64,000 bases of DNA, taken from Moorella sp. Hama-1 (GTDB taxonomy: Bacteria; Bacillota; DSM-521; Neomoorellales; Neomoorellaceae). How positions within the stretch are numbered: the stretch's first letter is position 1; each line of letters starts with the position of its first letter. The position numbers were made by a program, and so were the translations under genes. Of this stretch, positions 3,934-63,120 are shown one piece after another. The stretch covers positions 1-64,000 of the forward strand of contig NZ_AP024620.1 in assembly GCF_023734095.1 (NCBI RefSeq). The letters are read 5' to 3'. The notes under the pieces were generated by a model. That model saw only the letters and a program-made list of their open reading frames with translations. It was not told where the DNA came from and ran no database searches.

Positions 3934-4086
3934 TTATTTTCGGAGGAGCCGACCATGGTGGCGGATCACCACCAACGAAGGAAAGAAATGAGAGGCGGGC
4001 AAGTTTTAATCTGAAACTGGCGCAGCCAGTTTCGACAAGCCTCCCACCTCTCACCTCCAACCCACACATCTCATTTCGGAGGAGGC
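3934..4086 (+). repeat. Dispersed SD-flanked repeat, copy A1 (upstream of remB-like gene)
   Basis: The intergenic segment starts with TTTTCGGAGGAG and ends with TTTCGGAGGAG, so direct repeats carrying a Shine-Dalgarno motif bound it. Inside is a perfect hairpin with arms GAAACTGGC (4013-4021) and GCCAGTTTC (4025-4033), then a CCTCCCACCTCTCACC tract. GAAATGAGA near 3985 can pair with TCTCATTTC near 4070. Closely similar segments occur at 48238-48385, 59430-59571 and 63021-63120. The terminal GGAGGAG serves as the ribosome-binding site of the next gene. Confidence 0.85.
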
Positions 4087-45256: not shown

Positions 45257-45286
45257 GTGAACCCTATTTTTGGAGAAGGTGAACTG

Positions 45287-46393
45287 ATGGTTGCTCAAGG
45301 CACGAAACCCATTACCGGCGAGCAGCGGGCCTTTATGACCGGCAATGAAGTTGTCGCCTGGGCTGCCCTGGCGGCCGGAGCCGACATTATGTACGGCTAC
45401 CCCATTACCCCTCAGAACGAGATTATGCACTACTGGACCCGCCTCGCCCCTAAATACGACCGGGGTTTTTTACAAACCGAAGATGAAATCGCAGCCGGCT
45501 TTACTACCGCAGGTGGGGTCCTGGCCGGTAAAAGGGCCTTTACGGCTACCGCCGGGCCCGGTAACGTCCTGATGCAGGAGGCCATGTCCATGGCTGAGAT
45601 GATGCGCCTGCCGACAGTAGTGGTCGTGACCCAGCGGGGCGGCCCGTCTACAGCTACGGTAATCTATTCCCAGCAGGAACTCAACCTGACCTGCTCTGGC
45701 GGCAATGGAGAGGGGTTAAGGATTGTCTATTCCACCTCCTCCCACGAAGACCTCTTTCACTATACCATTAAGGCCTTCAATACCGCCTGGAAATACCGCT
45801 TCCCCACCTTTGTCCTGGGGGACGGTTACCAGTCCAAGATGCGGGAACCGGTTACCATCTATGACCCGGAGACCAGGGGTATTACCATGGCAGAGAGCCG
45901 GCCGATGGTCGGCCTGCCGGGCCTGCCCGGGGTAGAGCGTGAGCCGGCCCATCTGCGCAATACCTTTAACCTGGAGGATGAACTCTACGAACGCCTGACG
46001 GCGTCAATTGAAGACTACCGGGCTATGACCCCGGAGGTGGTGGAGTGGGAAGCCGGCACCGTTGACGACGCGGAACTGCTAATTATTGCCCATGGGGTTG
46101 TTTCCCGGGCTGCCCGGGCGGCCGTTACCGCCCTGCGGGAGGCCGGCGTCAAGGCCGGCTACTTCCGGCCCATCACCCTACGGCCCTTCCCGGAGGAAGC
46201 CCTGCAACCCATAGCTGCCAGGGTGCGCCGGATCCTGGTGGTCGAATCGGCCTACGGCCAGCTGGAACGCCAGGTCAGGGCCAGCCTTTACGGCCTGGAG
46301 ACGCCCATTAGCAGCTACTTGCGCCCGGGCATGGGCATCACCCCGGAGGAAATCCTGCGCGTAGCCCGCCAGGAACCAGCCAGGCAAACGTGA
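45287..46393 (+). CDS. korA: 2-oxoacid:ferredoxin oxidoreductase, alpha subunit
   Basis: Alpha subunit of a KorABCD/VorABCD-type enzyme that oxidatively decarboxylates a 2-oxoacid to an acyl-CoA while reducing ferredoxin (or the reverse). The 368-residue protein has GYPITPQNEIMHYW, the conserved TATAGPGNVLMQEAMSMAEM stretch and a domain II ending in the AYGQLERQV region. ATG 45287 follows GGAGAAGGTGA. The substrate (2-oxoglutarate or branched-chain oxoacid) is not decided. A repeat-filled gap of 441 nt separates it from the beta subunit. Confidence 0.9.
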   Translation: MVAQGTKPITGEQRAFMTGNEVVAWAALAAGADIMYGYPITPQNEIMHYWTRLAPKYDRGFLQTEDEIAAGFTTAGGVLAGKRAFTATAGPGNVLMQEAMSMAEMMRLPTVVVVTQRGGPSTATVIYSQQELNLTCSGGNGEGLRIVYSTSSHEDLFHYTIKAFNTAWKYRFPTFVLGDGYQSKMREPVTIYDPETRGITMAESRPMVGLPGLPGVEREPAHLRNTFNLEDELYERLTASIEDYRAMTPEVVEWEAGTVDDAELLIIAHGVVSRAARAAVTALREAGVKAGYFRPITLRPFPEEALQPIAARVRRILVVESAYGQLERQVRASLYGLETPISSYLRPGMGITPEEILRVARQEPARQT

Positions 46394-46403
46394 GGGCTAA
46401 AGC

Positions 46404-46826
46404 TACCGCCAGCCCCGCAGCGGTTACTGTAAGTTGCAACCATTTTTGGTAGAAGTCTATTTTCGGAGGAGCCCCTCATGGGGGCTGACGCTCCCACCAC
46501 GAAGATATGAAAATATTGGTTGAGTAGAGGGCTGGCGGGTACAGGCGGAAGGCGACTTGGTTCGAGGCGCAGAGCAAACTCAGCGAAGCCGCACCGAGGC
46601 GGCGGTGAACGGGATGGGGATCGAAACGTAAATTGAGGAACGAAGAGTTCCGCTCCCCGCTGCGTTTATTCAAAGGGATACAGCCGAGCCACCCCCGCCG
46701 CCGAGGAAGGCTGAGCGCTAAGTTTGCTCGTCGAGAACCACTGGAGCCTGAAGACCTGTACCGCCAGCCCCGCAACGGTTACTGTAAGTTGCAACCATTC
46801 TTGGTAGAAGTCTATTTTCGGAGGAG
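46404..46826 (+). repeat. 355-bp repeat unit (B1) flanked by 68-bp direct repeats, between korA and korB
   Basis: The 68-bp sequence at 46404-46471 recurs at 46759-46826 with only two differences. Each copy ends in TATTTTCGGAGGAG, and the second provides the korB ribosome-binding site. Between them, GAGCAAACTCAGCGAAGCC (46571) is nearly the reverse complement of the stretch near 46709-46729, so the unit can fold into a long hairpin. Part of it (GGCTGAGCGCTAAGTTTGC...) reappears at 59267-59440. No ORF or transposase is encoded. Confidence 0.85.
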
Positions 46827-46834
46827 TTGATTTT

Positions 46835-47623
46835 ATGGCCCTGGCTGCCCAGCCCCAGATGCCCCGGGTCTGGCGGGCGGAGACCAAACCCCATAAGTTT
46901 TGCCCCGGTTGCGGCCACGGCATCATCCTCAAGGCCCTGGGCGAAGCCATCGACGCCCTGGGAATCCAGGACCGGACCATCTTTGGCTGCGATATCGGCT
47001 GCTCCCTCCTTTCCTGGGACTTCTTCAACCTGGATACTATCCAAACCCATCACGGCCGGACAACTCCTGTCCTGGTGGGGATGAAACGGGTGCGCCCGGA
47101 ACTGGTGGTAGTTTCCTACATGGGTGACGGCGGCGCCTATGCCATCGGCGCCCAGCACCTGGTCAGCAGTGCTGTACGTAACGACCTGGTAACCATTATC
47201 GTCGTTAATAATACCCAGTACGGCATGACCGGGGGGCAAATGGCGCCCACCACCCTACCGGGGCAGAAAACCGAGACTACCCCCTATGGCCGCAACGTCA
47301 AATTGACGGGGCGACCCATGCTGGGACCGGAACTGGTGGCGGCCATTGCCTCGCCGGGGGCTTATGTGGCCAGAGGCAGCATCGCCAATGTTATCCAGCT
47401 CAAGAATTTCATTCAGAAAGGCTTGCAGAACCAGATAGAGGGCCGGGGGCTTTCCTTCATCGAAGCCCTGTCCGCCTGCCCCACCAACTGGCGTACCAAT
47501 GCCGCCGAAACCTGGCACTTCGTCGAAAAGGAGATGGCCGCCTATTTTCCCACCGGGGAATTGCTGACCCCTGACGAAGTAAAGGGTGAACGGCCCCGGG
47601 AGGAATCACCTGGTGAACCTTAA
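46835..47623 (+). CDS. korB: 2-oxoacid:ferredoxin oxidoreductase, beta subunit
   Basis: The thiamine-pyrophosphate subunit, 262 residues. FCPGCGHGIILKALGEA and the ThDP motif GDGGAYAIG through NNTQYGMTGGQ are diagnostic. ATG 46835 follows GGAGGAG from the end of the repeat unit. It overlaps korC by 11 nt. The complex is cytoplasmic and transfers electrons to ferredoxin, as expected in an acetogen. Confidence 0.93.
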   Translation: MALAAQPQMPRVWRAETKPHKFCPGCGHGIILKALGEAIDALGIQDRTIFGCDIGCSLLSWDFFNLDTIQTHHGRTTPVLVGMKRVRPELVVVSYMGDGGAYAIGAQHLVSSAVRNDLVTIIVVNNTQYGMTGGQMAPTTLPGQKTETTPYGRNVKLTGRPMLGPELVAAIASPGAYVARGSIANVIQLKNFIQKGLQNQIEGRGLSFIEALSACPTNWRTNAAETWHFVEKEMAAYFPTGELLTPDEVKGERPREESPGEP

Positions 47624-48237: not shown

Positions 48238-48385
48238 TTTCGGAGGAGCCCCTCATGACGGCATACCGCCGCCAGCGAACGGGAGAAATGAGAGTTCGGT
48301 AAGCTTTAATCTGAAACTGGCGCAGCCAGTTTCGACAAGCCTCCCACCTCTCACCTCCCACCTCACACATCTTATTTCGGAGGAG
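48238..48385 (+). repeat. Dispersed SD-flanked repeat, copy A2 (between korC and korD)
   Basis: Starts with CTTTCGGAGGAG and ends with TTTCGGAGGAG. It holds the same hairpin arms as copy A1 (48313-48321 and 48325-48333) and the same CCTCCCACCTCTCACC tract; the stretch from about 48305 to 48356 is nearly identical to A1. The terminal GGAGGAG lies 8 nt before korD. Confidence 0.88.
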
Positions 48386-58441: not shown

Positions 58442-59279
58442 TCTCTACCTGGTGGCCACACCCATTGGTAACCTGGAGGATATCACCCTCAGGGCCCTCA
58501 AGGTTCTGCGGGAGGTAGACCTTATTGCCGCCGAGGATACCCGGCACACCCGGGAACTCCTGGCCCACTATGAGATTCATACCCCCCTGACCAGCTATCA
58601 CCGCCACAACCTGGCCGCCAAAACCCCTTACCTGCTGGGGCTGTTACGGGAGGGCCGGGACATTGCCCTGGTATCTGACGCCGGCCTCCCGGGCATTAGC
58701 GATCCCGGGGAGGAACTGGTCCGGGAAGCTGTGGCCGCCGGCCTGGCGGTGGTACCAGTACCGGGAGCCAGCGCCGCCTTGACGGCCCTGGTGGCCTCCG
58801 GGCTGCCGGCGGGCCGCTTTGCCTTTGAAGGTTTTTTACCCCGGGCCGGGAAGGAACGCCGGGAGCGCCTGGCGGCCCTGGCGGCTGAGGAACGGACCCT
58901 TATTTTTTATGAAGCGCCCCACCGGCTGGCGGCCACCCTGACCGACCTGGCGACTACCCTGGGAGCCCGGCAGGTGGCAGTAGCCCGGGAGTTAACGAAA
59001 AAGTTTGAGACCATCTGGCGGGGTACCCTTCGGGAGGCCGCCGGCTACTTCCAGGATAACCCGCCCCGGGGGGAGATTACCCTGGTGGTCGCCGGCGCGC
59101 CGCCGGCGTCCCGGCCGGCCTTCGATCCCCTTCAGGCGGCAGCGGCGGTAGCGGAACTGGTGGCCGGTGGGATGGAACGCAAGGAGGCCATGAAGCAGGT
59201 AGCCCGCCAATATGGGCAGTCCCGGCGGGAGATCTACCGCGCCTGCCTGGAGGCGGAGCAAGGGAGAAGCCCCTCATGA
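58434..59279 (+). CDS. rsmI: 16S rRNA 2'-O-methyltransferase RsmI
   Basis: Methylates C1402 of 16S rRNA. The 281-residue protein has LYLVATPIGNLEDITLRA at the N-terminus, AAEDTRHTRELL, LVSDAGLPGISDPGE and VPGASAALTALVASG. ATG 58434 overlaps the end of yabA; AAGGGG lies upstream. The last few codons run into the repeat region that follows (GGGAGAAGCCCCTCATGAGG). Confidence 0.95.
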   Translation: MASLYLVATPIGNLEDITLRALKVLREVDLIAAEDTRHTRELLAHYEIHTPLTSYHRHNLAAKTPYLLGLLREGRDIALVSDAGLPGISDPGEELVREAVAAGLAVVPVPGASAALTALVASGLPAGRFAFEGFLPRAGKERRERLAALAAEERTLIFYEAPHRLAATLTDLATTLGARQVAVARELTKKFETIWRGTLREAAGYFQDNPPRGEITLVVAGAPPASRPAFDPLQAAAAVAELVAGGMERKEAMKQVARQYGQSRREIYRACLEAEQGRSPS

Positions 59280-59440
59280 GGGGTGACGCCCCCGCCAGCG
59301 AAGCAGGAAAATGCGGGTTGAGCAAGGCTGAGCGCCAAGTTTGCTTGCCGAGAACCACCCGGAGCCCGGAGCAGTACCCGCCGGCCCTGAGGCTGGATGG
59401 CATCAACATCCATTTTTACCAGAACTCTATTTTCGGAGGA
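59267..59440 (+). repeat. Diverged partial copy of the B-type repeat (B2)
   Basis: Shares CCCCTCATG...GACGC, then AAGGCTGAGCGCCAAGTTTG and CGAGAACCAC, with the korA-korB unit at 46472-46824, and ends ACCAGAACTCTATTTTCGGAGG. It is shorter than B1 and lies directly upstream of repeat A3. Confidence 0.75.
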
Positions 59441-59571
59441 TTCCCTCATGGGGGCAAACTCCACCAGCGAACGGGAGAAATGAGAGGCAGGGCTTTAACT
59501 GAAACTGACGCGGCCAGTTTCGACAACCTCCCACGTCTCACTTCCAACCTCACACCCCTCACTTCGGAGGA
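59430..59571 (+). repeat. Dispersed SD-flanked repeat, copy A3
   Basis: Bounded by TTTTCGGAGGA and ACTTCGGAGGA. The internal hairpin has arms GAAACTG (59501) and CAGTTTC (59515). The pyrimidine tract CCTCCCACGTCTCAC matches the others with changes. Unlike other copies it is not followed by a same-strand gene within 450 nt; it looks decayed. Confidence 0.8.
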
Positions 59572-59584
59572 CTCTAAATAAATA

Positions 59585-62915: not shown

Positions 62916-63020
62916 ATATGCAGTGGCCAGGTATAAAACCTAAATATTCTGGTAAGACTATAGTTAACACATAATGGAAGGAATGGCACGATGCGACAAA
63001 CAGTTACCGGTAAACCGGAG

Positions 63021-63120
63021 AAGTAAAAGATAGGCCAGCTTGAATCTGAAACTGGCGCAGCCAGTTTCGACGAGCCTCCCACCTCTCACCTCCCACTTCT
63101 CACATCTCATTTCGAAGGAG
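63021..63120 (+). repeat. Dispersed SD-flanked repeat, copy A4 (upstream of the G5/3D gene)
   Basis: The hairpin arms GAAACTGGC (63048-63056) and GCCAGTTTC (63060-63068) and the pyrimidine tract match A1 and A2 closely; the end is TTTCGAAGGAG, one base off the usual string. The 5' boundary is unclear. It provides the likely ribosome-binding site for the next gene. Confidence 0.85.

Follow-up and report, generated by a model that had tools for sequence, protein, structure and literature searches.

The gap between the korA-like and korB-like genes of Moorella sp. Hama-1 holds a complete copy of a dispersed element that very probably belongs to a family of non-coding mobile elements confined to one lineage and directed to Shine-Dalgarno (SD) sequences. 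We give a probability of roughly 0.8 to the mechanistic form of this reading, in which a non-coding, non-autonomous family integrates at the SDs of genes in one orientation and duplicates the hexamer NAGGAG. High copy number, exact position at the SD, empty sites in relatives, retention of the native SD base, and a structured short type are what the data show. Features of the window (the whole 64,000-nucleotide stretch analyzed) are listed in Table 1.

Table 1. Elements, target copies, and neighboring genes in the window
Feature	Coordinates	Strand	Remarks
korA-like gene (POR_N, PFOR_II)	45257..46393	+	Domain match
3'-terminal fragment of an older long-type copy, left part missing	46404..46465	+	Together with 46466-46471 forms the 68-mer identical to the L011 right end
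Putative left copy of the duplicated target GAGGAG (SD)	46466..46471	+	Same hexamer at 46821-46826; empty sites elsewhere place insertion after NAGGAG
Complete long-type element, 349 bp, CCCCTCATGG...CTATTTTCG	46472..46820	+	Both boundaries common to aligned genomic copies
Nested palindromic module, outer arms GGGCTGGCGGG / CCGCCAGCCC	46529..46770	+	Congener matches; inverted version at G000:258900
Putative right target-duplication copy, the SD adjoining korB, GAGGAG	46821..46826	+	8 nt, then ATG at 46835
korB-like gene (TPP_enzyme_C), predicted to use the SD at 46821-46826	46835..47623	+	Domain match
Short-type element between the POR gene and a ferredoxin-like gene, SD end 8 nt before ATG	48249..48385	+	
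Short-type copy, 9 nt before ATG	3949..4084	+	
Shortened copy of the long type	59268..59441	+	
Short-type copy in tandem with the 59268-59441 copy	59443..59572	+	No clear gene after its end
Short-type copy, left end diverged, 7 nt before ATG	62995..63120	+	

The locus encodes subunits of a 2-oxoacid:ferredoxin oxidoreductase, with POR_N/PFOR_II domains 5' of the gap and TPP_enzyme_C 3' of it, followed by POR and a 4Fe-4S protein. A preliminary description had reported a unit framed by 68-bp direct repeats, with a long imperfect hairpin and no protein gene inside. We recovered the repeats at 46404-46471 and 46759-46826 (each 68 nt, two differences, spacing of 355) and the hairpin, whose arms (46572-46585 and 46716-46729) are complementary at 13 of 14 positions; the interior contains no credible protein gene and overlaps mechanical minus-strand open reading frames of 99, 120, and 173 amino acids. 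Folding of a 366-nt stretch gave z scores of −6.2 as RNA and −5.5 as DNA against 100 shuffles, with 0/100 shuffles equal in each case. Scans for promoters and terminators found no promoter and no plus-strand terminator, and two terminator-like sites on the minus strand. The kor gene cluster carries two insertions; the short-type copy at 48249-48385 comes after a solo long-type right end.

When the organism's own genome (G000; 3,324,617 bases in one contig) was searched at the DNA level, the korA-korB stretch gave 44 matches, placing a chance origin far out of reach. Because these matches mostly span query positions ~57 to 423, what family members share is the right-hand unit, and the left 68-mer is the right end of a member that happens to lie upstream. 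This corrects the bounds first given for the unit: the element proper covers 46472-46820, and the left 68 bp are what remains of a different, truncated copy, namely its 3' end, followed by the duplicated SD. A distant copy (L011) has a right end that matches the left 68-mer exactly, and a second (L009) has one that matches the right 68-mer exactly, so a recent local duplication is not needed; judged by their sequences, the 68-mers at this locus come from two members of the family and are not twins. A local tandem duplication of the 355-bp unit would account for direct repeats that are 97% identical, but with each 68-mer matched by an identical twin elsewhere, dozens of dispersed copies, and only one full unit here, we find it scarcely credible. 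The original proposal of a non-autonomous element thus stands, and that of a recent tandem duplication does not. We call the element non-autonomous because no copy examined has room for a transposase gene.

The long type, represented by the korA-korB element, has at least 40 copies in the 3.32-Mb own genome, and matches occur in 13 of 31 genomes including this one, namely all 10 congeners and two genomes in which the nested interior alone matched. A search with the right-end pattern TATTTTCGGAGGAG at up to two mismatches gave 191 matches versus 54 for the reversed pattern, and through these right-end matches we found a sister family (the short type) of ~135 bp, which shares its left end with the long type and has an SD at its other end. 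A covariance model of the short type found 101 matches in the own genome, 117 in G007, 21 in G008, 16 in G009, 12 in G002, 3 to 6 each in G001, G003, G004, G005, and G006, and 4 in G015, which belongs to another genus; the other 7 of the 18 genomes scanned gave zero. Long and short types often occur in chains, such as the one preceding the gene that starts at 88621 (MAETGEAIAVILAAGQGKRM..., glmU-like by eye). A pattern search of a genome contig collection identified four loci, all in Moorella thermoacetica DSM 21394, and a search of a plasmid collection gave no match to the element. Like MITEs, the family is short, non-coding, and high in copy number.

Each element starts right after an SD (NAGGAG|CC..CATGG) and terminates in one; its first bases are CC and its last are TTTTCG. 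Using open reading frames of at least 80 codons and setting aside as tandem those ends with another element next, we found a start codon 4 to 16 nt 3' of 58 of the 74 ends without a following element, compared with 9.7% of 20,000 random positions and 13.7% (169/1231) of all NNAGGAG motifs in 364 kb. The 53 short-type right ends comprise 7 in tandem, 37 with a start codon in this interval, and 9 with none (37/46 non-tandem); the 38 long-type right ends, taken from 41 copies after 3 with an incomplete right end were dropped, comprise 10, 21, and 7, respectively (21/28 non-tandem). The end motif falls 66 times on the plus strand and 6 times on the minus strand in 364 kb, and many copies start a few bases past the stop of an upstream same-strand gene, that is, within tight operons. 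The preliminary description had seen a difficulty in an element placed inside such an operon, whose subunits should be made in equal amounts; the concern is lessened, since after the insertion an SD still lies 8 nt before the korB ATG, and translation would be expected to survive from it. At left ends (e.g., 46472-46481), an ATG lies ~6 nt past the captured SD in most copies (TCATG), in an arrangement resembling a translation start. A leader peptide beginning at this ATG was considered and rejected, as its frame varies between subfamilies (by eye).

Empty sites in relatives locate the insertion point. The flanks of seven own loci were searched against 10 congeners, with 20 stretches read, and seven more loci followed. 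Uninterrupted sites were found for korB, aspartokinase, glyA, purS, rplL, efp, yajC, and ftsW (gene names by eye), and they place the insertion exactly at the SD, directly 3' of it. The korA-korB junction is readable in 8 of the 10 congeners, where 7 are uninterrupted and one (G004) contains a short sister-family fragment whose SD keeps the GAAGGAG of the sister species; a fixed region conserved in all relatives, which the preliminary description had named as contrary evidence, is therefore not seen at the junctions read. In G006, the native aspartokinase site reads GAGATTCTGGAGGAG|GTTACTATG without interruption. At yajC, the native sequence is GAAGGAG|TGGTGG in G005, and the own genome has CGAAGGAG on both sides of the element. 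The clean case is ftsW, native CGGGGGAG|GTAATC in G003: the element in G009 has CGGAGGAG on its left and CGGGGGAG on its right, with the unusual native GGGGGAG retained beside the gene. At a cbiX-like locus, G005 contains a long-type element reduced to its right end.

The base at position −6 of the gene-side SD is the native one in 12 of 13 comparisons, with a permutation p of 2e-4 that is too favorable, since some of the 13 loci (e.g., yajC) were picked after matching SDs had been seen. At −6, nine of the 13 native bases differ from G, and 8 of those 9 are retained despite the G usual in the family; the sole mismatch is korB of the own genome, where the native base is A and the present one G. 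This retention suggests that the target duplication may be 6 nt long, NAGGAG, and thus the SD itself, a length estimated from few informative sites. In the own genome, left and right SDs are more alike than shuffling predicts, both for the long type (n = 34, p ~2e-4) and for the short type (n = 53, p ~7e-4, at 8 nt), while among congener copies (mostly from G007; n = 42) their similarity is not significant (p of 0.08 to 0.38). We favor a 6-nt duplication of NAGGAG whose left copy would have drifted later; its main rival is a right end carrying its own SD.

Members of the IS200/IS605 family lack inverted repeats, have terminal hairpins, and insert in one orientation beside a short fixed motif. 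An insertion of this kind 3' of AGGAG, without duplication, would make the SD part of the element's own right end. Like the IS200/IS605-derived PATE and REP/REPIN elements, the Moorella element has no terminal inverted repeats (the CCCCTCATGG and CTATTTTCG ends are not inverted copies, and the palindrome at 46529-46770 is internal), helices near the left and at the right end, and one orientation at a short fixed target. Right ends are also more uniform than left ends; with G at −6 in 77 of 91 own-genome right ends, many right SDs could equally be element-borne. The end is again tighter than the target in a G007 subfamily (L118, L125, L143-L147, L149; left end ACGCCCATGCC, right end CAGGGTAG, target roughly GRGYAG), whose members end in GGGTAG, mostly without a start codon facing them. 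However, the native −6 base is kept on the gene side at 8 of 9 non-G sites, and this evidence for target duplication would distinguish the element from IS200/IS605-derived ones. A Y1 transposase is likewise missing: profile PF01797 had 0 matches in the own genome and matched 5 of 14 genomes as a control, loss being possible, and the ends of the IS605-type element in G001, a potential partner, are unrelated. We therefore regard an IS200/IS605-like origin as unlikely and dropped Y1 transposase as a candidate mover; by eye, G007 has no such end either. The G001 element (L159, L165) carries TnpA and TnpB, its genome has three equal-score Y1 matches, and it was perhaps recently active, judging from the 1730 identical bases of the two copies compared.

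The short type is structured. Among 43 congener copies, in an alignment fitted to the model, three helices covary strongly: both sides differ in 84 cells, against 34.4 ± 6.2 for shuffled data and 10 to 17 with the partner slid; the own-genome short copies alone were uninformative. One short-type helix closes directly 5' of the right SD, and a comparable stem, GAAAATA / TATTTTC, is possible in the long type (by eye). Structure under selection, in leaders right before SDs, is what a cis-regulatory RNA (a riboswitch or attenuator controlling translation) conserved before its genes would show. Such an RNA is nevertheless improbable as an explanation of the family, which is missing at most orthologous junctions read in congeners, has no evident neighbor theme (by eye: rplL, glyA, efp, ftsW, yajC, korB), occurs in chains, and gives no Rfam match near the gathering score. 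A search of 46300-46950 up to an E value of 5 returned two weak, unrelated Rfam matches and no group II intron. Once inserted, the element could nonetheless influence regulation locally. Three other genomes match the nested module at 46529-46770 without the outer parts: in G010 the best match is confined to query positions 126-367, and G012 and G023 match nowhere else. In the own genome at 258900-259257 (within L089), a long-type copy has its interior palindromic module inverted.

In the mechanism that we propose, the element integrates 3' of NAGGAG and duplicates the hexamer. The upstream copy would end up before the element and the downstream copy would stay at the normal distance from the start codon, so that translation of the gene should survive on the SD that is kept. 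An enzyme supplied in trans would move the element. The retained SD could serve as the next target, which would account for single genes preceded by chains of two or three elements. At korB, a first copy probably inserted and later lost its left part, after which a second, complete copy entered at the first copy's SD.

As to the moving machinery, we found no autonomous copy, transposase, or integrase with element ends near the Y1, IS110, and reverse transcriptase (RT) genes examined. IS110 was rejected as a mover, its one own-genome locus having ends that do not match the element. Two RT genes occur in the own genome, one intact and one broken, and the intact one lacks element-type ends (by eye). 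A group II intron-type RT gene at own-genome positions 624889-625584 (L054) lies apparently inside an IS21-like ATPase region (by eye). A SINE-like retroelement, whose RNA copy is put into SDs by an RT in trans and leaves 5'-truncated copies with intact 3' ends, would fit the short duplication, the structure, the lack of inverted repeats, the intact RT gene, and the 12 of 29 long-type right ends in 364 kb that have no left end within 460 bp. Selection for SD retention would leave 3' ends too, however, and RT domains are absent from the carriers G007 (117 hits; 84% complete draft), G008 (21 hits; 58%), and G002 (12 hits; 99%), so this origin seems quite improbable. RT was set aside as the mover, being absent from some carriers and showing no such ends at the intact gene; nor does its presence relate in any evident way to the number of copies per genome. 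More broadly, a structured RNA, or its DNA form, might recognize SDs by pairing or via the mRNA and integrate with SD duplication in a SINE-like or RNA-guided way, a scheme we hold to be speculative and rather unlikely. Under this scheme, the ribosome-binding site would be a safe haven, and subfamilies could shift their target (GGGTAG in G007).

Returning to NAGGAG-duplicating insertion, several known systems offer comparisons. Class C group II introns are structured RNAs that target terminators, fixed functional sites where insertion does limited harm. The Moorella element is similarly structured, RNA-like, and directed to a fixed functional site of this kind, but it differs in having no Rfam intron match, an apparently duplicated hexamer, a CC start, and a TTTTCG end. 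Safe-haven integration is also known from Ty1/Ty3, upstream of Pol III genes, and from Tn7 at attTn7; the Moorella family shares a targeting rule that spares the neighboring gene, and differs in being directed to the signal that starts translation, before many different genes. MITEs and the BOX, RUP, SPRITE, ERIC, and Correia elements are likewise short, non-coding, dispersed in many copies, base-paired, and intergenic; they duplicate their target directly, as is proposed for the Moorella element. Unlike them, the Moorella element has no terminal inverted repeats, is fixed to the SD in one orientation, and would have the SD itself as its duplication. We found no description or name for the family in the open-licence literature, including the partial texts of PMC6978639, PMC10969869, and PMC3049150; the words "Shine," "ribosome," and "start codon" do not occur in PMC10969869. 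Small interspersed bacterial elements are a known kind; the open-licence literature yielded no case of SD targeting in which the SD appears to be what is duplicated.

If the target duplication is indeed the ribosome-binding site, it would provide a simple way to live between operon genes, including the essential rplL and efp, and with a working SD copy adjoining the gene, the element could spread without obviously breaking anything. Such insertions would account for the long gaps in otherwise tight Moorella operons and would add ~135 to 355 nt of structured RNA to the leaders of core-metabolism genes in a genus studied industrially; they would also raise the question of which enzyme recognizes AGGAG. 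Three loci (L022, L031, and L075) have the SD region duplicated in tandem on a small scale (e.g., ATTCTGGAGGAG twice), either next to an element or where there is none.
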